Assembly: GCA_958439205.1 (NCBI GenBank)
Contig: OY288189.1
Location: 4,355,001-4,419,000, forward strand
Reading direction: 5' to 3'
Length of the DNA stretch: 64,000 nucleotides
Source of the DNA: an uncultured Allorhizobium sp.
Lineage (GTDB): Bacteria > Pseudomonadota > Alphaproteobacteria > Rhizobiales > Rhizobiaceae
Shown: positions 54,661 to 64,000 of the stretch, piece by piece
How the letters are laid out: every line of letters begins with the position of its first letter
How positions within the stretch are numbered: the stretch's first letter is position 1
Translations under genes and position numbers: made by a program
The notes under the pieces: generated by a model
What the model was told of the DNA's origin: nothing
The model's input: the letters and a program-made list of their open reading frames with translations, nothing else
The model's database searches: none

Positions 54661-54735
54661 GCTGCTATAGCTCAGGGGTAGAGCACTCCCTTGGTAAGGG
54701 AGAGGCCGAGAGTTCAAATCTCTCTAGCAGCACCA
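54661..54735 (+). tRNA. tRNA-Thr (GGT), island attachment site
   Basis: A 75-base cloverleaf GCTGCTATAGCTCAGGGG with anticodon loop TTGGTAA giving GGT, T-arm TTCAAAT and encoded CCA. Acceptor arms GCTGCTA and TAGCAGC pair. A tyrosine integrase starts 78 bases downstream in the same direction, so its 3' end is the likely attachment site. No second copy of the tRNA end is seen in the rest of the window. Confidence 0.96.
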
Positions 54736-54812
54736 TTTTCCTGTTTGATTTTCAAATAGTTGACTGTTATCAGGGCTTTGAAAGCACCTCGGTGGTACAC
54801 AGAGGTGGCCAC

Positions 54813-56324
54813 ATGGTCTTGCAAATGCCCCGTCCCTTCAAGCATCCGAAAACCGGCGTCTATTATTTCCGCGTTCGCGTTCCCGTCGATCTGGTAACGC
54901 AATTCGGGAAGACTGAGGAGAAGATATCGCTGAGGACCAAAGAGCCCACTTTGGCCAAACAGCTATTCTCGGAAAAAGAACGAGAATTCGAAGCGCGCTG
55001 CAAAGCGTTCCGGGCGAAGCCTGAACCCCTGCCCCACCGTCAGATTGTCGCCCTCGCGGGAAAACTCTATCTCCAGTTCATGGCACCGCTAGAGGACGAA
55101 CCGGGCGAGCCTGAGCTTTGGCATCGGGTCCTTGAGATCGGTGAGGCCGTGTATGCCAACGAAGACAAGATGGAGCGCTGGTACGGCCCGGCTATCGATG
55201 AACTTCTGCAGCGCGAGGGCTTGGCCGTCGATGCATCGTCCCGATCACGGCTTTTGCATGAGGGGCATAGCGCGCTGAGGCAAGCCGCAGAACAGCAACT
55301 CAAGCGCTCGCAAGGCGACTACAGCCCTGACCCAAATGCTCAGAGATTTCCGCAGCTGGCACCATCGGCGAAAGACGACGGGGTTACCTTGCATGACCTC
55401 TTCAAACTTTGGGAACGCGATCACGTTGCGGAGGGAAAAACGCTTCGGACGGTCGAGGACTTCCGGCATAAGATCGAGGATTTCATCAAGTTCCTTGGTC
55501 ACGGCGCGGCTACTCGCGTGACCCCCAAGGACGTAGCAAACTACACTGAGTATCTTCGACATGAGCGCGGCCTAACCGCCCGCACTGTCAGCGCCAAGTA
55601 CCTCGCTGCAATCCGTACCATTTACAGAACGGCGATCTCGAAAATAGTTGTCGCGGAAGACCCGACAGCGCCAGTGCGGGTCCGTGTACCGAAAACAATC
55701 CATGAACGACCACAAGGCTTCACAGATGCTGAGGCGGCCAAAATCCTCCAGTGCGCCCTTCGTGATCCATCCACACTTGGCAAAATGTCTGAACTGAACA
55801 AGCTTGCGATCCGATGGGTGCCGTGGATTTGCGCCTACACTGGCTCCCGCGTGGGCGAAGTCACCCAACTCCGTCGAGAAGATTTCGTTGATGAGGTTGG
55901 CATCCAATGCGTCCGGATTACGCCAGAAGCGGGCACAGTGAAGACGAAAAGATACCGGATGGTGCCGCTGCATCCTCACCTGATTGAGATGGGCCTTTTA
56001 GACTTCTTGAAGGGGATGCCAGCAGGACCCCTCTTCTACCGGCCAAGCAAAAAGAAGACGCGACCCGGCTACAATCCATGGGACAGCGTTACGGGCAAGG
56101 TCAGCACATGGGTACGAGGGACTGCAGGGGTCAAAGACCCAAGGGTGCAGCCCAATCATGCCTGGCGCCATCGTTTCAAAACTATTGCCCGCGACGTTGA
56201 TATCGCTCAGCGCTACATGGATGCCATACAAGGACACGATGATGGTAGTGCGAGCACCGACTACGGCGAATACACCATGAAAGCGCTCTATCGTGAAATT
56301 CTCAAGCTTCCGCGCCACGGGTGA
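54813..56324 (+). CDS. Tyrosine integrase at tRNA-Thr
   Basis: A 503-residue phage-type site-specific recombinase. The N-terminal region, MPRPFKHPKTGVYYFRVRVPVDL, resembles integrases with a DUF6538-type domain; a SAM-like core-binding domain and a C-terminal catalytic domain follow. Catalytic residues are R346 (TGSRVGE), H449 and R452 (HAWRHR), a histidine in IQGHDDGS and the nucleophile Y484 (TDYGE). ATG 54813 or 54825 may be the start; the frame is open back through the tRNA. It probably integrated the island that begins here. Confidence 0.93.
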   Translation: MVLQMPRPFKHPKTGVYYFRVRVPVDLVTQFGKTEEKISLRTKEPTLAKQLFSEKEREFEARCKAFRAKPEPLPHRQIVALAGKLYLQFMAPLEDEPGEPELWHRVLEIGEAVYANEDKMERWYGPAIDELLQREGLAVDASSRSRLLHEGHSALRQAAEQQLKRSQGDYSPDPNAQRFPQLAPSAKDDGVTLHDLFKLWERDHVAEGKTLRTVEDFRHKIEDFIKFLGHGAATRVTPKDVANYTEYLRHERGLTARTVSAKYLAAIRTIYRTAISKIVVAEDPTAPVRVRVPKTIHERPQGFTDAEAAKILQCALRDPSTLGKMSELNKLAIRWVPWICAYTGSRVGEVTQLRREDFVDEVGIQCVRITPEAGTVKTKRYRMVPLHPHLIEMGLLDFLKGMPAGPLFYRPSKKKTRPGYNPWDSVTGKVSTWVRGTAGVKDPRVQPNHAWRHRFKTIARDVDIAQRYMDAIQGHDDGSASTDYGEYTMKALYREILKLPRHG

Positions 56325-56819: not shown

Positions 56820-57869
56820 CTACTCCCGCTTCCGCTTGGGCTTCTGAGGCGTCCCCTCCAGAACGTGAAGGATATCCTCCAGCCCCCTCGGCTTCATCTG
56901 CATGTAGCGCATGGTGGTGACGATGGCCGAATGGCCCATCCACTCCATGACGCGCTTGATATCGACACCAGCCAGCACCAGACGGGTGCAGCAGGTATGC
57001 CGGAGGACGTGCGGGGTGACGTCATGGAAGTCCAAGACCGCCCGCATGGTGTCCCACCGTGACCGCATCTTGTGTTCGTTCTGGCTCGTGAACGGCCCCT
57101 TATTGCCCCGTGCTTCCAGCCTTTGACGGCGGGCGAGCATTTCCCTCACGCGCTTCGTCAGGGGGACTGTGCGGGGCCGTTTGGTCTTCGTCTTCCAGAA
57201 CGTCACGGTCGAGAACTGAGGGCCGAAGTCCTCCCATGCCACCGTCATCATTTCCGCGAAGCAGCGCGCCCCGGTGTCGATGAGGGCAATGGTCAGGTCA
57301 AAGTTGTCCTGATCGTTCTGCGCCGACCAGTAGGCCAGCAAGACGCGCTCCTCCTGCTCATCCAAGAACCGGAAGCGGGTCTTCTCGACAGCGTTCCACT
57401 TGATCGAGGGCATCTTGTCGATGGCCCCGGCGTCGTGTGCTGTCTTGAGGATTTTGGAGAGGGCGGCGATCTTCTTGTTGACGTAGGAGGGCGACAGGCC
57501 CTCGTCAGCGAGATCGGACTTCCAGTCGGCAATGTCTGCGGAGGTGATCTCGTTCAGGGGCTTATTGCGCCCCCAGTAGTCCACTGCGGTCTGACCGTTG
57601 CGGATTTGGGCGGCACCTCCACGGGCCTGAGAGGACCAGACGGTGCGCTTCACGAAGTCGAAGCATGGTCCGAGGATGGACAGGTCACGGGTCTTGGAGC
57701 CGCTGATGTGAATGCTGACAGGCGGGAGCGGCTTGCCCATCTCTATCGCGTCACGGGCGGCGACCTCCCATTTGATTGCATGTTCTTCTGTTGGGAATGT
57801 GGGCCGGAAGCGATTGCCGTCCTCAAGGGTGACGTCGGCTTGCCACTTGTTGCCTCTTTGGCGGGCCAT
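56820..57869 (-). CDS. Second tyrosine recombinase
   Basis: A 349-residue site-specific recombinase. MARQRGNKWQADVTLEDGNRFRPTF is a typical arm-binding start; the catalytic domain has TGARCFAE (first Arg), HVLRHTCCTRL (His-x-x-Arg), MGHSAIVTTMRYMQM (second His and Tyr nucleophile). ATG 57869 follows GGGAGG and is the start of homology; the frame runs 24 codons further. It follows a 78-aa gene with a 1-base gap. It is unlike the first integrase, so the island probably accumulated more than one element. Confidence 0.93.
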   Translation of the reverse strand: MARQRGNKWQADVTLEDGNRFRPTFPTEEHAIKWEVAARDAIEMGKPLPPVSIHISGSKTRDLSILGPCFDFVKRTVWSSQARGGAAQIRNGQTAVDYWGRNKPLNEITSADIADWKSDLADEGLSPSYVNKKIAALSKILKTAHDAGAIDKMPSIKWNAVEKTRFRFLDEQEERVLLAYWSAQNDQDNFDLTIALIDTGARCFAEMMTVAWEDFGPQFSTVTFWKTKTKRPRTVPLTKRVREMLARRQRLEARGNKGPFTSQNEHKMRSRWDTMRAVLDFHDVTPHVLRHTCCTRLVLAGVDIKRVMEWMGHSAIVTTMRYMQMKPRGLEDILHVLEGTPQKPKRKRE

Positions 57870-57870
57870 A

Positions 57871-58107
57871 TCACGCCTCCCGACTGGTGAGAGGAACGAC
57901 GGCGACGGCTGAGGCTTCTGCTTGTGCCAAGACTTCATCAATCTTGGACCGTGCCCATTTCAGCGGTCGCACCACGTCGGCGCTCGCTAACGGATGCCCG
58001 TTCACTGCCGCCCGCATGGCCGTCATGATGACCTCTGTGGCGATGGTCATGTCCGACACGCTGTAGTCGAGCGGGGTGGCGGATTTCTGCTGTCTGCTGG
58101 TTTGCAT
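57871..58107 (-). CDS. Small protein coupled to the second recombinase, 78 aa
   Basis: A 78-residue hydrophilic protein, MQTSRQQKSATPLDYSVSDMTIATEVIMTAM, with two predicted helices and a Lys/Arg-rich middle (VVRPLKWARSKIDEVLAQ). Its stop is one base before the recombinase start, so they are translated together. The position fits a recombination directionality factor or regulator, but no helix-turn-helix motif of Xis type is evident. Unknown function. Confidence 0.5.
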   Translation of the reverse strand: MQTSRQQKSATPLDYSVSDMTIATEVIMTAMRAAVNGHPLASADVVRPLKWARSKIDEVLAQAEASAVAVVPLTSREA

Positions 58108-58306: not shown

Positions 58307-58408
58307 CTAGCGACCAAACAGACTATTCAGGACAGACCAGATGCCGCCCACGGCCAAAGCGCCGATCACCAGCCAACTGCCGACAACAATAACCGTATCC
58401 ATCGTCAT
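58307..58408 (-). CDS. 33-residue membrane microprotein coupled to the serine recombinase
   Basis: A 33-codon frame, MTMDTVIVVGSWLVIGALAV then GGIWSVLNSLFGR. It is almost entirely one hydrophobic helix with a short polar end. Its ATG overlaps the recombinase stop by four bases (ATGA), the same coupling seen in true operons. Below the size cut-off of most gene finders. A tiny membrane protein (toxin-like, holin-like or structural) is possible; none can be claimed. Confidence 0.55.
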   Translation of the reverse strand: MTMDTVIVVGSWLVIGALAVGGIWSVLNSLFGR

Positions 58409-58968
58409 GCCTCCCCCTTGGCGGCATCGAATACCTTCTGAACCGCCGACTTGCTGAAACCTACCTGTGCCGCGATCTGGCGAACACTCACGCCATCAGC
58501 CTTCATCTGGGTCATGACCGCCTTCACCTCCGGCGTGATCATCGCGGGACGTCCTCCGGTTCGACCCTCGGCTTTCGCCTTGGCAATACCTTCCAGTTGG
58601 CGCTCCTTGCGCAAGTCAGTCTCAAACTCTGCGATACTGGCGAGGATGCCGAAGACAAGCTTCCCGGTTCTGGTGGTGGTGTCGAGCGTTGCGTCGTCCA
58701 GCACTCGGAACCCAACGCCCTTCTCATTCAGGCCCTCTACGATCTGGTGGAGGTGCGATGCCGACCTTGCAAGGCGGTCCAGCTTCGTCACGAGCAACAC
58801 GTCGCCCTCTCGGACGAAGCGAAGGCACTCGTCCAAGGCGGGGCGCTCCCGGTCAAGGCCGGACTGTTTCTCGCTGTAGACCTTCTCGGCACCTGCCGCC
58901 TTGAGACGGTCGATCTGAGTTGCGTGATCTTGTCCCGTGGAACTCACCCTGGCGTATCCAACAATCAT
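58405..58968 (-). CDS. Serine recombinase, resolvase/invertase type
   Basis: A 187-residue small serine recombinase. MIVGYARVSSTGQDHATQIDRL contains the catalytic serine S9 (in RVSS) and R7; KLDRLARSASHLHQIV carries further active-site arginines. The long E helix and C-terminal helix-turn-helix (VSVRQIAAQVGFSKSAVQKVF) are standard. A repeat array of GTGGAC motifs just upstream of its start is the likely res/operator region. It is not joined to a transposase here. Confidence 0.93.
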   Translation of the reverse strand: MIVGYARVSSTGQDHATQIDRLKAAGAEKVYSEKQSGLDRERPALDECLRFVREGDVLLVTKLDRLARSASHLHQIVEGLNEKGVGFRVLDDATLDTTTRTGKLVFGILASIAEFETDLRKERQLEGIAKAKAEGRTGGRPAMITPEVKAVMTQMKADGVSVRQIAAQVGFSKSAVQKVFDAAKGEA

Positions 58969-59087: not shown

Positions 59088-59810
59088 TTAGTCAATTGCG
59101 CGATAATCCATTGCTCGGATTGGTGGCTTCGGGAGCGGATTGAACCCTTCTAGCGGGTCACCCTGCATGAAGTGATCAATGACGTTCTGTTTCGAGAACG
59201 GTGTGACGACAATGCGAAAGCTAGGGGCTTTGCTGATGCGCCAGAGTAGCGGCATGGGAGGTAGTCCCCAGCCAACGAAGTTCGTATTGCCGAAGTCCAA
59301 GTACACAGGATGGGTCGCAGATATCCAGTGATCAATGAGCGGGAAACGGCGTAAGGGCAATCGCCAGCCCCGCGCCGCGCCGTAGTCCGGAATATCGGCT
59401 GACAAAAAACTCCGGAATGTAATGACATCGCTCCCCTTTCTCATTCCATCGACAATCCATGCCATTGGACCATAGAAAGCCTCACGGGACCGCCGTTCGT
59501 CTCCCGGTAGGTGCGAATGCTGGAACTCAAGAACGGTCCTGTTGGGGGTCTGGACGTCAGCTATGTGAACGTCTCCTCCGGGGCCTTCAATCCGTATCTC
59601 TTGGCATTCTTGCGGGAACTCGTTCTTCCAATCACGATGCCAGGCAGTTTCCCGTTCCCACCATTTGTCACAGTTTGCCGTTCTGTGCGCCCAATGGTGA
59701 ACCCTTTGTTGGCCACAACGGGGCGTCATCGGTAGACCACATGCCTGACAGACACCTCGAAGCCCGACAGCAGCCTCATGGCGATGCCCATCAACCAGCG
59801 CGTACTTCAT
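59088..59810 (-). CDS. CoiA-like nuclease-domain protein
   Basis: A 240-residue protein with an N-terminal zinc knuckle (CQACG, then HHWAH at 38-42), as in competence protein CoiA, followed by a restriction-type nuclease core: D85 in HIADVQ and E95-x-Q97 in VLEFQHS. The C-terminal half is specific. CoiA-like proteins occur in competence loci and in mobile DNA. It stands alone on the minus strand, 120 bases from the serine recombinase start and 175 from the next operon. Host defence, DNA uptake or mobile-element processing are all possible. Confidence 0.78.
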   Translation of the reverse strand: MKYALVDGHRHEAAVGLRGVCQACGLPMTPRCGQQRVHHWAHRTANCDKWWERETAWHRDWKNEFPQECQEIRIEGPGGDVHIADVQTPNRTVLEFQHSHLPGDERRSREAFYGPMAWIVDGMRKGSDVITFRSFLSADIPDYGAARGWRLPLRRFPLIDHWISATHPVYLDFGNTNFVGWGLPPMPLLWRISKAPSFRIVVTPFSKQNVIDHFMQGDPLEGFNPLPKPPIRAMDYRAID

Positions 59811-59985: not shown

Positions 59986-60906
59986 CTATTCATCAGCCCG
60001 CTTAATCACATATCCGGTGATTTCGCCGGAGGCATGTGCGTCACGCGCCATCGCAAGAGAATGACCACTAGCACGCCATATTGAAATCTCGTCGCCAAAC
60101 ATCCGCTGGGACACCAAGCACAAGCTGGAGAAAATCTTCGGCCCCATCGGAACCAACACTGTTCGCGCAACACCGCTTAGTGACAAAATCAGAGAACGCA
60201 TCTCCCAAAATGTTTGGTACGGTGAAAGAACCGGATATTTTATAATACGGTCAGCATTAATCAGTTCGAAAAATGAACGATTGGCCGTCTCAACCTGCTT
60301 TTCAAACTTCTCATCGCTTCCGATAGGGAAGAAGGCGAATGTCACGCTCGGATCTAAGAATTCAAGTGCGCCGACCGCGTGATCAGTCTCATAGCCCAAG
60401 CCGAGAACAAGCGCCGTAGGCCGCTCGGGATTGGAGGTCCAGCCGCCAAAATTATCCAATGGCGCAAAATCTAGAAAATCTAGCTCCTCAGAAGGCGGTG
60501 GCACGAAGACGGCTACTGAATAAAAAACCGTTATCTCTGCATTCTTGAAGAATTCCGAGTCCAGTAGTTCGGCGAGCAAAAAGGCCATCGCCCCGCGATT
60601 GAGCGAGGAAACATCAATGCAAATCTTACAGCCACAAAAGTCTGCGCGAGCATTCAGATTTTGAAGCCGGCTTTTGATGGACACACCGTCTTGCAGCTCG
60701 TGACCGCCACATTCCTTCAGGAATTTAAGATTGTTGTCGAAACTAAGTTGATGGCCGTCCGGAAACACATAGCCCAAGATCGTTTTCGCGCAGCGACAAT
60801 ACCGTTCAGCAACATGACGCGCACGAGCCTCATAACCAACAGCAAAGATCAGAAGGTCAAACTCAAAGTCGTCCTCCGGGTTGACGTTGAACAGGTCAAT
60901 TTTCAT
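59986..60906 (-). CDS. Unknown 306-residue protein with internal duplication, last gene of the candidate system
   Basis: I do not recognise this family. Two similar Rossmann-like strands and turns occur: LLIFAVGYEARARHV at 18-32 and ALVLGLGYETDHAVGAL at 165-181, with GYE at the same place in each, so the protein looks like two related halves. ICIDVSSLNR at 96-104 may be a nucleotide or catalytic site of the first half. No membrane helix or signal peptide is present. It overlaps the ATPase stop by 11 bases, so it is made with it. GC is lower than the chromosome. Confidence 0.75.
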   Translation of the reverse strand: MKIDLFNVNPEDDFEFDLLIFAVGYEARARHVAERYCRCAKTILGYVFPDGHQLSFDNNLKFLKECGGHELQDGVSIKSRLQNLNARADFCGCKICIDVSSLNRGAMAFLLAELLDSEFFKNAEITVFYSVAVFVPPPSEELDFLDFAPLDNFGGWTSNPERPTALVLGLGYETDHAVGALEFLDPSVTFAFFPIGSDEKFEKQVETANRSFFELINADRIIKYPVLSPYQTFWEMRSLILSLSGVARTVLVPMGPKIFSSLCLVSQRMFGDEISIWRASGHSLAMARDAHASGEITGYVIKRADE

Positions 60907-62767
60907 CGCTGAAATCCAACTTAGCTTGCCGATTTCCAGTTTGCGGGCTTAGCAGCGTTGTAAGGCTGATCTCTCTGTCGAGCGACAGCGGAAGCTTATA
61001 GTGTGCTGCGAGGAGATAGTTCAAACGAAAGCGATTACCCACAACGTTCGAAAGGATGTCTTCGGAGTCTTGATCGGGGACGTAAACAAGCGCTCCGATG
61101 TTCAGCGCCTTTCCGATAGCAGAAAGGTCGTCAGCGTTAACTCCGTGATCTACACGAAACGAAAGGGGAGGTTGATCACTAAATTTCGTTGACATAAGTC
61201 CGCGATGAAGCGCCGAGCCAATGGCATCTAAGAATGGTAGAAGTCCGCGTCCCTGATATTTCCGGCTACGATGCGGGACGGTTTTTAGAAGGGACCGCAT
61301 TACTCGGATGGCCTTCTGGATCTCATCCGCCTGTCTGGCTCCCGAAACGGTTTGCTTACCTTCCAACTGCTTGTATTCGGCGACGAGCGGAGCGAATAAA
61401 TTTATGAGGCTTCGAGGGTTCCCTTCCGTCAAGGCCAACATCGACGGATTACCAGAATAGAGTATGTAGCTTTTACGTGAGCGGCTGTTCAATTGTTCAA
61501 TTTGCAGTCCAGCTTTTGAGGGTCGAGAAAAATACTCCCTAAGAACGACAATATTTCGCACCTTTCGAAGTGTTTTTGCCGCTGATTTCTCATCAAGCTC
61601 TTCTATATTTGAAAGGTCAATTCCACGCAAATTAAGATATGCCTGAAAACTCGCATCCTTCTCGCTTAGAGACTGAAATATCCTTCCAAGTGGCTTTGTG
61701 CTGCTGTACTTTTTTACTGCTGAATTTTGATCGACGGCATCATCATCCTCGAATGCGAAATATGATGTACCAAGCATGGTCTCAACTTCGGCATTTATAC
61801 CGGCCTGAAGAAGCATTAAATTGCACAATCGCCGGGAAAAATCGTACCCGTTTTCCTTTCGCGCAAAACTCAAATCGATATGGCTATAGTCGTGAGTGTG
61901 GGAAGCGCCTCGGTCATCGAAAGACGAGCGGAAATTTTTGTTGAACGGGGCCAAAGCTAGTTTGTAATTTATCTTCAGCTTGTCGACTTCCCCTCTAAGA
62001 TCAGAGAAAAGCGACTCTTGGACAAATGAGGGAGCGACCTCCATTTCGTCAAAAAGGAAACTCCAACGCCTCGTCTCCAACCCCGAGACGTGATTGTGAA
62101 TATCCGCTGCACCGCGCATCCCTTCGCGATAGTCGACAAAGAGATACTTGTTGTCCTCGTTCGATAAGGGACTGTTGCCGAACTTTAGTTGGTTTCGCAA
62201 AATTCCGATCTGCGCCAACCGCTGCGACAATGCGGCCCGAGTTTCCGCGAATGTGTAGGCGCGCGGCTTGAGAAGCCACAGATCTGCAAGGTGAACACAA
62301 ATGTCCCGCTCTTTCCGCGAGTCCAACTTTGTCACCAAATTGGAATAAAATTGCCCCTCCGCTTGCGGAAGATTTTCCCAATCGATGAATGTTGCGGTGA
62401 TTGCCTTAAATATGTGGGTGGTGAAAGCGCTCATCCCGAGGAGTTCTGCGGCGCTTTCGTCAGGGACATCTTTGGTCAGGCCATTTAGCTGACCATGCCA
62501 ACTTCTGTCCGCCGCTACGAAAACGGATACAAAATCGATCTTCTGCTTTAAACTAGCAGCCTCATCGCCGCCCCACTTTTGAAGGGCGGGCAGGGTCAGC
62601 ATTTTCAGCAGGGTCGTTTTCCCTGAGCCTCGCGGCCCTGACAAAACTGTATGACCTTTCGCGATCAGACGCTCCAACGCGTTTGGCGGCGATACGAATG
62701 AACCGGCAATCTCGGCGTCGGTTTTATGCTTGGCGTTGAACGTATCGAAAAATGGATTTTCATGCAT
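60896..62767 (-). CDS. ORC/CDC6-like P-loop ATPase, middle gene of the candidate system
   Basis: A 623-residue ATPase. MHENPFFDTFNAKHKTDAEIAGSFV is typical of bacterial ATPases grouped with ORC/CDC6. Walker A GPRGSGKTT is at about 44-52 and Walker B WSFLFDEMEVAP at about 235-246. The long C-terminal part has no recognised domain. The ATG at 62767 overlaps the metallophosphoesterase stop by 8 bases; an ATG at 62797 (10 residues longer) would overlap by 38. It likely forms the sensor or motor of the unit. Sampled line 61741-61800 has 25 G+C of 60 bases. Confidence 0.85.
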   Translation of the reverse strand: MHENPFFDTFNAKHKTDAEIAGSFVSPPNALERLIAKGHTVLSGPRGSGKTTLLKMLTLPALQKWGGDEAASLKQKIDFVSVFVAADRSWHGQLNGLTKDVPDESAAELLGMSAFTTHIFKAITATFIDWENLPQAEGQFYSNLVTKLDSRKERDICVHLADLWLLKPRAYTFAETRAALSQRLAQIGILRNQLKFGNSPLSNEDNKYLFVDYREGMRGAADIHNHVSGLETRRWSFLFDEMEVAPSFVQESLFSDLRGEVDKLKINYKLALAPFNKNFRSSFDDRGASHTHDYSHIDLSFARKENGYDFSRRLCNLMLLQAGINAEVETMLGTSYFAFEDDDAVDQNSAVKKYSSTKPLGRIFQSLSEKDASFQAYLNLRGIDLSNIEELDEKSAAKTLRKVRNIVVLREYFSRPSKAGLQIEQLNSRSRKSYILYSGNPSMLALTEGNPRSLINLFAPLVAEYKQLEGKQTVSGARQADEIQKAIRVMRSLLKTVPHRSRKYQGRGLLPFLDAIGSALHRGLMSTKFSDQPPLSFRVDHGVNADDLSAIGKALNIGALVYVPDQDSEDILSNVVGNRFRLNYLLAAHYKLPLSLDREISLTTLLSPQTGNRQAKLDFSDEN

Positions 62768-63992
62768 TGACTGGTGCCAACTCTTTGATTTGTCCATCGG
62801 CTTCGGTGGCGATCACTCCGCTCGCTTCGAGCGCTTCAACTAGCGACGCATGGTCGGAAGGCATTAGACGCCGAAGATCGGGAAAGCTCGAAATCAAGTC
62901 TGTCCAGATCATCTTTCCAGAGGCCTTGACGGCTGCAGCCACACTTTTTGCAAGATCCGGTATGTACCCGCGATATCCGAAGCCCGAAATCACTGGCAGA
63001 CCGCCAGGAATGCTCGTCTTCGACTGCCATCCGATGCTTGGCGTCCAGTTCCACGCACGAACCGTGCCGGCAACACGAGCAATTTCCCCCGACTTAGCCT
63101 CCTCCAACTCGATGACATAGAATTGGTTCGGGCACGGATTATGCTCGTCCCCCGTCCTGGTTGCCGCAAAACTTGCACAGGAAAGGACAATTGGTGCCGA
63201 ATTGCCTCCGATACAAAACAAGTTAGAGCGATGCCTATGCCCGTGGATGATGAACCACTCACCAAGCGATGCTTTGCTGAGCATATCGGCCAGTCGCTCC
63301 GACCCTTTCATAGTGCTTGTATCGTCAAAAGCGTCAGTGGAGACGGGACGTATATGGTGATGAAAAAGGCAAATATTTTGCTTATGGGGTGCTGCCTTCA
63401 CCGCAGTCTTCAACTGCTCCTCAATACTGTCTAGCGTGATATCGCTGATGCGTCCCCGCTCCAACTCTGGTTCAGCGTCGGAACCAAAGCCGTGAAACGC
63501 ACAGGAATTGATGTTCAAGATCCGATACTGATCGTCTTCTAGTATGGAGAAATGGTTCGCCCAATATTCGAGCAGGTTGATCCGATGCTCGGCCGGATTG
63601 GGGAATGGAAATCCCGGCTCTAGCGTTCTTAAGAAGCCGCGTGGGTCGAATTTGTTTTGCTTGTGCCGCGTATCTAGATCGTGGTTTCCGCATGTTGCAA
63701 CCAGCTTGGTTCCAGAAAACTTTCCCGATAGTGAGGAAAGCTCCTTCCAGACAGATTGGATCGCGTGAGTATCAGCCTTGTCGCCCAGATCACCACCAAC
63801 GATCAGTAGATCGGGAGGGGCAATGTCGCCGCTCTCAAATAGCTTTATGAAGCCAGCAAGCGGATCAATGTTAGGCTTTCTCGTCGGCGCAGAAAAGTCG
63901 ATAAGAGACGGGGCTAATACAGCTTTGCCATCAGACGCCTTTCGAGCATCCGAGCAAAAGGCATGAAGATCGGAGAGAACTGCTATTCTCAT
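62760..63992 (-). CDS. Calcineurin-like metallophosphoesterase, first gene of the candidate system
   Basis: A 410-residue phosphoesterase with the full two-metal set: D8-x-H10 (SDLHAF), GGDLGD at 66-71, GNHD at 102-105, HHH at 211-213 and HGHRH at 250-254. It could cut a nucleic acid, a cyclic nucleotide or a phosphoprotein. About 60 C-terminal residues could form a winged helix. It overlaps the ATPase gene. ATG 63992 is 8 bases from the window edge and the frame has no stop before it, but MRIAVLSDLH is the normal family start. Confidence 0.88.
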   Translation of the reverse strand: MRIAVLSDLHAFCSDARKASDGKAVLAPSLIDFSAPTRKPNIDPLAGFIKLFESGDIAPPDLLIVGGDLGDKADTHAIQSVWKELSSLSGKFSGTKLVATCGNHDLDTRHKQNKFDPRGFLRTLEPGFPFPNPAEHRINLLEYWANHFSILEDDQYRILNINSCAFHGFGSDAEPELERGRISDITLDSIEEQLKTAVKAAPHKQNICLFHHHIRPVSTDAFDDTSTMKGSERLADMLSKASLGEWFIIHGHRHRSNLFCIGGNSAPIVLSCASFAATRTGDEHNPCPNQFYVIELEEAKSGEIARVAGTVRAWNWTPSIGWQSKTSIPGGLPVISGFGYRGYIPDLAKSVAAAVKASGKMIWTDLISSFPDLRRLMPSDHASLVEALEASGVIATEADGQIKELAPVNA

Positions 63993-64000
63993 GCTACCAA

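Follow-up and report, generated by a model that had tools for sequence, protein, structure and literature searches.

What kind of system do the last genes of this stretch of DNA encode? The stretch (64,000 nucleotides of an uncultured Allorhizobium sp., contig OY288189.1; the window in what follows) ends within an island where a preliminary description, made from the sequence, noticed three minus-strand genes, for a metallophosphoesterase (MPE), an ORC/CDC6-like ATPase and a third protein, and took them for a probable co-transcribed, mobile defence operon. The closed genome of the window's host (4.53 Mb) was used to read past the window edge. The unit and its mobility have stood, whereas the count of three genes, the identity of the third protein and the logic have not. 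The operon is composed of four genes: a Dam-type methylase gene, which has only its last bases in the window and lies almost wholly beyond its edge, followed by those of the MPE, the ATPase and a tandem CARF protein. With a methylase as gene 1 and a CARF protein as gene 4, its logic is read as methylation-linked. We read the operon as a new form of modification-linked defence, with a logic like that of restriction-modification or BREX and an unusual effector set, in which the defence role is predicted. The genes, of which numbers 2 to 4 are called the trio, are:

Gene 1, 63994-64839, minus strand (only 63994..64000 in the window; L002:14995-15840, genome C1:4418994-4419839): D12-class DNA adenine methylase (Dam), 281 amino acids (aa); PF02086, 4e-43
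Gene 2, 62760..63992, minus strand: calcineurin-like MPE, 410 aa; PF00149, with a C-terminal winged helix-turn-helix (wHTH) domain, PF24408
Gene 3, 60896..62797, minus strand: AAA+ ATPase of the ORC/Cdc6-STAND clade, 633 aa; PF24389; likely start M11
Gene 4, 59986..60906, minus strand: tandem CARF protein (CARF6), 306 aa; PADLOC CARF6, 1.8e-52

A conserved trio and its methylase

The gene overlaps described earlier, 8 (or 38) and 11 bases, are exact. The MPE and ATPase genes share 38 bases, or 8 if the ATPase starts at an internal ATG, and the ATPase and CARF genes share 11. Since homologues begin near this second possible ATPase start (M11), the 8-base overlap is the likelier; several homologous operons have an overlap of 4 bases at this junction. 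The methylase gene, on the same strand, stops one base short of the MPE start.

The association proposed from a single genome recurs elsewhere. An alignment of the ATPase alone, used as query of GTDB genomes, gave at least 57 loci (labels such as L038 name loci), and the loci were scanned iteratively with hidden Markov models (HMMs) of the four proteins, for which five loci (four in the case of Dam) served as seeds. Among the matches listed, 54 of 57 loci have the MPE, ATPase and CARF genes one after another in this order and with the same orientation; the remaining three are cut by contig ends (L011 and L066 stop inside the ATPase gene, L040 starts just before it). This adjacency answers the objection, foreseen in the preliminary description, that the homologues might usually lie apart. 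The ATPase, CARF and MPE queries each match the same five of 72,556 plasmid records, at one place each, two of these plasmids being near-identical Sinorhizobium copies. No family among the other neighbouring open reading frames (543, from 58 loci) is present in more than four loci. Co-occurrence in unrelated genomes shows that the trio is a conserved unit, beyond chance. According to the record titles, its hosts are Proteobacteria, Actinobacteria, Bacteroidota, Planctomycetes, Verrucomicrobia, Acidobacteria, Gemmatimonadota and SAR324. Within the window's own class the unit is rare and patchy: in 385 genomes, the CARF protein and PF24408 are found in the window's genome only, and PF24389 there and in two distant members (L005 and L006, whose loci of 3.9 and 4.2 kb are too short to judge neighbours). 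With the ATPase as query no relative turned up among 50,697 phage records, nor in pattern-based scans of viral contigs with the single query or the alignment. At the DNA level two ATPase genes of L038's order had no match in 20,395 E. coli records, a search that more diverged copies would escape.

Dam is encoded directly upstream of the trio in 41 of the 57 listed loci, and nearby in another orientation in two (L056 and L057). Five more (L012-L014, L029 and L032) have a different, larger D12 methylase lacking the Dam contact motif, called by Pfam and sequence or, in L032, by a score equal to that of L029, so that these two are one case. The variant methylase of L012 matched no solved structure. 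In eight loci no methylase was found with the Dam HMM (E up to 1) or with the variant HMM, fewer than 650 bases upstream of the MPE gene being available to them in L041, L046 and L047; the remaining locus is cut. The gene before the MPE in L010 (614 aa) has no match above cut-offs. In L056 (638-2795) the Dam gene adjoins a DUF6996/DUF6997/DUF7226 gene about 3 kb from the trio, and the two are possibly a separate GATC restriction-modification pair.

Presence of Dam elsewhere in the host was scanned in 50 genomes or records of the 58 loci, that is 49 genomes and one plasmid record (L010), with a model which, as a control, matches in E. coli and three others of 14 known genomes. The Dam in the locus is the only one over the cut-off in 35 of the 49 genomes (175-260 bits), several of which have a second match below it; in the window's host, gene 1 is likewise the sole TIGR00571 Dam match. 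Seven genomes have an over-cut-off Dam only outside the locus (277-313 bits), and one (L056) has Dam both in and outside it. The six genomes with no Dam over the cut-off are those of the five D12-variant loci and of L046. The seven with Dam only outside are exactly those whose operons have no D12 gene, L046 excepted. A tree of the trio places the D12-less operons in three lineages, of which two adjoin operons of Gammaproteobacteria that bear Dam (support values not considered).

The same pattern is seen in fresh genomes. Besides L038 and L051, 394 genomes of L038's order contain four new operons; each lacks a D12 gene in its locus, and each host encodes a strong Dam (293-319 bits). Conversely, 361 genomes of L065's order contain one new operon, which has its own Dam, with no other over the cut-off in the host. 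In all, 54 of 55 genomes encode either a D12 methylase within or near the operon or a strong Dam at another place, the exception being one partial metagenome-assembled genome (MAG).

The eight listed loci and four new operons in which no D12 methylase was found might suggest that Dam is a loosely associated passenger and that the trio alone is the system, with no need of methylation. Against this, a strong Dam is present elsewhere in 11 of 11 testable D12-less hosts (the L046 MAG and the plasmid-only L010 not counted), and we regard a passenger role as very improbable. On the simplest reading, the host needs GATC methylation in order to tolerate the trio, or the trio needs it to distinguish self from foreign DNA.

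The four proteins

Gene 1 has the features of the Dam/D12 family: a D12 domain, DPPY, and the N-G-x-x-R and FNVP motifs. Among solved structures it is nearest to DpnII methylase 1 (2dpm), then to Dam chains. Its PADLOC matches are models of Type II and orphan methylases, the best being a Type II methylase model (1.2e-70). DPPY, N131 and R135 are kept in all 46 Dam genes of the loci and P145 in 45 of them; N131, R135 and P145 are also present in the DpnII methylase and in E. coli-type Dam. Residues of the N-G-x-x-R and FNVP motifs presumably contact GATC, as we take it from studies of E. coli Dam, and the operon Dam would be specific for this sequence.

Calcineurin-like enzymes are recognised by the motifs D-x-H, GD, GNH[DE], H and GHxH, all of which are present in gene 2. 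The complete active site that had been claimed for this hydrolase is indeed there: the metal and active-site residues D8, H10, D68, N103-H104, H211, H252 and H254 are invariant in 53 sequences, as are the motif blocks G67-D68, G102-D105 and G251-H252. By sequence profile the nearest solved relatives are Lmo2642, Rv0805 and what we take to be a GpdQ-type phosphohydrolase, then Mre11/SbcD. The NCBIfam model DS9_1 (NF053862) matches at 4.3e-14, with 52.2 bits against an equivalog cut-off of 420; judged by its sequence, the MPE is only a distant relative of the DS-9 phosphoesterase. As the sole clear hydrolase besides the ATPase, it is the likely effector.

The gene 3 protein matches PF24389 (ORC-CDC6-like) over residues 16-612 with 412.8 bits against a cut-off of 27, which bears out its earlier description as an ORC/CDC6-like P-loop ATPase. 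Besides this nearly full-length profile match it has the Walker A and B motifs of the ORC/Cdc6-STAND clade: G54, R56, G57, G59-T61 (Walker A), D250-E251, R268 and R462 are invariant in 51 sequences. In a structure comparison of the predicted model (predicted local distance difference test, pLDDT, 87), the best 50 rows have Z 9-13.5 and comprise archaeal ATPases, Cdc6, MuB, BrxC, NLRs and further AAA+ proteins, with RFC, ClpA and p97 at Z 9-10. A Foldseek search with the model gave no match below E 0.001, and a sequence search of solved structures gave short matches only, mostly to the P-loop.

The third protein of the preliminary description, gene 4, had been called a duplicated-fold unknown. 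The duplication is real, since the AlphaFold2 model (pLDDT 93) has two Rossmann halves; the protein is not an unknown, being a tandem CARF protein catalogued as CARF6. All of the best 30 VIA-align rows are CARF or SAVED proteins, and the top one (6sce_A; Z 12.8, root-mean-square deviation (rmsd) 3.7 over 224 residues) covers both halves. We take 6sce_A to be Can1, itself with two CARF domains. With two Rossmann domains per chain, gene 4 belongs to the CARF superfamily (CARF6), and the PADLOC CARF6 models also match all four of the other CARF proteins scanned. This assignment rests on PADLOC and VIA-align and not on Foldseek, which was unspecific with the gene 4 model (top match a transporter, template modelling (TM) score 0.24). 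Sequence search of solved structures gave two non-significant matches only, and no Pfam match or effector domain was found. Invariant residues include D98, Y129, G171, G255 and K257, and nearly invariant ones E26, R28, E173 and N209. The lysine of the P-x-G-P-K loop presumably resembles the ligand-loop lysine of CARF proteins. For a phosphate-binding pocket, the conserved acidic residues are unusual.

In Pseudoalteromonas rubra a Pycsar cyclase gene (L045:3329-4705; PycC, PADLOC 1.3e-143) adjoins the trio, the only locus in which a cyclase was identified. In Aliivibrio, two genes next to the trio (L051:3052-4943) were considered as a second Pycsar pair, which PADLOC did not bear out; the larger of their proteins has weak helicase-like matches (PbeA, 1e-12).

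The island and other carriers

The operon lies, as first described, in an AT-richer, recombinase-rich island at a tRNA-Thr gene. GC content is 0.48-0.53 over 59-64 kb, compared to mostly 0.59-0.65 elsewhere in the window, and the tRNA gene was confirmed with ARAGORN. The recombinase genes span 54.8-59.0 kb. The features of the island are:

54661..54735, plus strand: tRNA-Thr (GGT) gene, the integration target of the island
54710..54737, plus strand: attL, 28-bp direct repeat
L002:17965-17992 (genome C1:4421964-4421991), outside the window: attR, second 28-bp copy
54813..56324, plus strand: island tyrosine integrase, adjoining the tRNA gene; DUF6538 and Phage_int_SAM above cut-off
56820..57941, minus strand: second tyrosine recombinase (cargo); PF00589, 1.9e-17
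58405..58968, minus strand: serine resolvase/invertase (cargo); PF00239, 2e-43

The repeat of the tRNA-Thr 3' end, perfect over 28 bp, bounds the island at both ends with a spacing of 12,254, and the island is a 12.25-kb element integrated in tRNA-Thr. The integrase open reading frame is listed from 54513 and its start was set at the in-frame ATG after the tRNA gene; its Phage_integrase match (0.052) is below cut-off. Downstream of the operon, the adjoining gene at 59088-59810 has a weak CoiA N-terminal match (2e-4, below cut-off) and is not conserved with the operon; it was ruled out as a fifth member, no neighbour family being recurrent in the loci. Two overlapping genes between the methylase gene and the right end of the island (198 and 324 aa; L002:15991-17561, window 64990-66560) have no Pfam match and no relative among the neighbours in other loci.

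Other operons are carried by plasmids, by chromosomes and, in L047, in a neighbourhood with TniQ, Csy2 and Csy3 genes; the four-gene unit is mobile and moves horizontally. One plasmid with the four-gene operon is pSmeRU11d of Sinorhizobium meliloti (NZ_CP021216.1). The TniQ, Csy2 and Csy3 genes adjoin the trio in L047 (4813-8801, by Pfam) and in L045 (31-3263, by similarity to L047). This is, we assume, the make-up of an I-F3 CRISPR-associated transposon, and in both loci the trio looks like its cargo. On a Methylobacterium plasmid (L009:9472-12944) a CHAT-domain gene and a second metallophosphoesterase gene lie beside the operon. Flavin-oxidoreductase-like and dCTP-deaminase-like genes are found near it in L007, L012, L014 and L024 (Pfam on the L007 copies), and L007, L014 and L024 have a MazG-like gene as well; the flavin-oxidoreductase-like and dCTP-deaminase-like set is perhaps another system.

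This variety of carriers bears on a regulatory or housekeeping role for Dam, in which methylation would control operon expression or, with the ORC-like ATPase, the replication or partition of the element, and would not label self DNA. Such a role would suit an ATPase of the ORC/Cdc6 clade and the two GATC sites found in the 150 bp that precede the island's Dam gene. However, the 200 bp before the Dam genes show no enrichment of GATC (30 sites, with 26.3 expected from base composition, in 42 loci), and five loci use a different D12 methylase. The carriers, moreover, range from the tRNA island and plasmids to the transposon-like neighbourhood and chromosomes, which indicates that the gene set is their cargo. 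We consider a regulatory role very improbable.

A probable modification-linked defence module

That the four genes form a horizontally moving, modification-linked defence module is, in our estimate, fairly probable. In the mechanism that we infer, the restraint by methylation, the activity against invaders, the roles of the trio proteins and the MPE substrate are all predicted. The Dam-type enzyme would place N6-methyladenine on GATC, marking the cell's own DNA as self, and genes 2-4 would be the response side. The ORC/Cdc6-STAND ATPase may provide ATP-driven sensing or a DNA-bound platform; the MPE with its wHTH domain would be the catalytic effector, hydrolysing phosphodiester bonds of invading DNA or of nucleotides; and the tandem CARF protein would act as its ligand-gated regulator. 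Methylated GATC would hold the response back, and unmarked incoming phage or plasmid DNA would be attacked. The fuller proposal is tentative, its chances being in our view somewhat short of even: a new class of modification-linked immunity, with GATC as self mark and an ORC/Cdc6-STAND ATPase controlling a wHTH-phosphoesterase via a tandem CARF protein, whose methylase may be dropped in GATC-methylating hosts and swapped for other D12 enzymes.

Several points weigh against modification-linked defence. The defence activity is so far a prediction from the genes. The MPE profile is nearer to nucleotide phosphodiesterases than to the Mre11/SbcD nucleases, which makes DNA cutting uncertain, and no nucleotide cyclase family recurs beside the CARF gene in the 58 loci. 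If genomes were independent, the 35/7 split between locus and outside Dam would have a chance of 1/C(42,7) = 3.7e-8, a figure that overstates independence because the D12-less operons come from few, related host clades. In L041 and L047 the sequence upstream of the MPE gene extends to 495 and 641 bases, and a variant methylase may lie farther off; L046, with no Dam, comes from a MAG of 1.3 Mb, and its contig shares 93% identity with L041. Finally, where the methylase is swapped (L012-L014, L029) the trio keeps its conserved columns almost unchanged, so that no trio subunit stands out as a reader of the target site, and a scan for co-evolution of the trio with methylase type gave no signal. The reader of the mark may therefore lie in variable parts of the trio, or what the trio senses may be something downstream.

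The independence of these columns from methylase type speaks for guard-type abortive infection, in which the trio watches GATC methylation or Dam itself and does not restrict DNA. Phage disturbance would switch the ATPase, and the phosphoesterase would then destroy nucleotides or a CARF-sensed signal, so that the cell stops. The fold matches of the ATPase include STAND/NLR switches, the MPE is nearest to nucleotide phosphodiesterases and resembles DS-9A, the CARF relatives bind cyclic nucleotides according to structure titles, and the same dependence on Dam is expected. Yet the methylase accompanies the trio into hosts with no other Dam, as in restriction-modification modules, and no toxicity is known. 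We judge such a guard unlikely, though the likeliest of the alternatives to modification-linked defence.

Self-marking is familiar from Type II restriction-modification, in which a Dam-type methylase is paired with a GATC endonuclease (e.g. DpnII); it is also mobile and likewise sets a self-labelling D12 adenine methylase beside response genes. It differs from the present unit in its response side, which here consists of ATPase, phosphoesterase and CARF protein: Pfam found no restriction endonuclease domain in the trio, and no other gene recurs in the loci. BREX similarly unites a methylase and an ORC/Cdc6-clade ATPase (BrxC) in one locus. It has PglX (BrxX) as methylase and PglZ, a protein of the phosphatase superfamily, in contrast to the D12 methylase and calcineurin-like MPE found here, and we know of no CARF protein in BREX. 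The ATPase model aligns with BrxC (9zdx_C) at Z 10.9 and rmsd 4.5 over 284 residues, among many ORC/STAND and AAA+ rows. No BREX model (core PglZ, BrxC, PglX) in PADLOC or Pfam matched the trio or the methylase, and the likeness to BrxC is that of the broad ORC/STAND fold only. The BREX make-up of methylase, ORC/Cdc6-clade ATPase and PglZ is given in PMC12839542.

DS-8 and DS-9, from DefensePredictor, share with the unit a metallophosphatase, the MPE matching DS9_1. According to section 7 of PMC13092281, both are validated in phage defence, with catalytic residues needed and substrates unknown; DS-9 pairs the metallophosphatase with a HAD phosphatase, DS-8 fuses it to NACHT, and that section describes neither with a methylase, an ORC ATPase or a CARF protein. 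The MADS, Ssp and Dnd systems share the logic of DNA modification plus an ATPase, and SspC is an ORC/Cdc6-clade ATPase according to PMC10853773. The ATPase of the unit resembles mad8 in its P-loop stretch (residues 47-93; PADLOC, 7.8e-7) and, more weakly, mad3; beyond these no MADS, Ssp or Dnd model of PADLOC matched the three window proteins. Can1, Can2, Card1 and Csm6 (CARF effectors and ring nucleases) have the tandem CARF fold of gene 4, in which, unlike in these, no effector domain was found; neither CRISPR nor cyclase genes are recurrent beside it in the 58 loci.

The unit thus matches no named system, as had been supposed: no PADLOC or NCBIfam model takes the MPE or ATPase into a system, and DS9_1 falls far below its cut-off. 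PADLOC models do fit gene 4 (CARF6) and the methylase (Type II and orphan methylases). The existence of PADLOC CARF6 and of the Pfam entries ORC-CDC6-like and 'wHTH-Calcineurin_assc' indicates that curators have met these proteins. The CARF6 clade reportedly goes back to a 2020 classification of CARF proteins. A literature search found no paper recognisable as describing this gene set; that classification, which lay outside the search, may mention the neighbourhood. Other ORC, calcineurin or CARF associations are described in passages of PMC10853773, PMC12839542, PMC7159879, PMC8195603 and PMC4012209.

If modification-linked defence by this operon is borne out, self-marking by DNA methylation and CARF-type ligand sensing, which are normally separate, would be joined in one compact module, and the Pfam domains PF24389 and PF24408 and the CARF6 clade would gain a function and a target.

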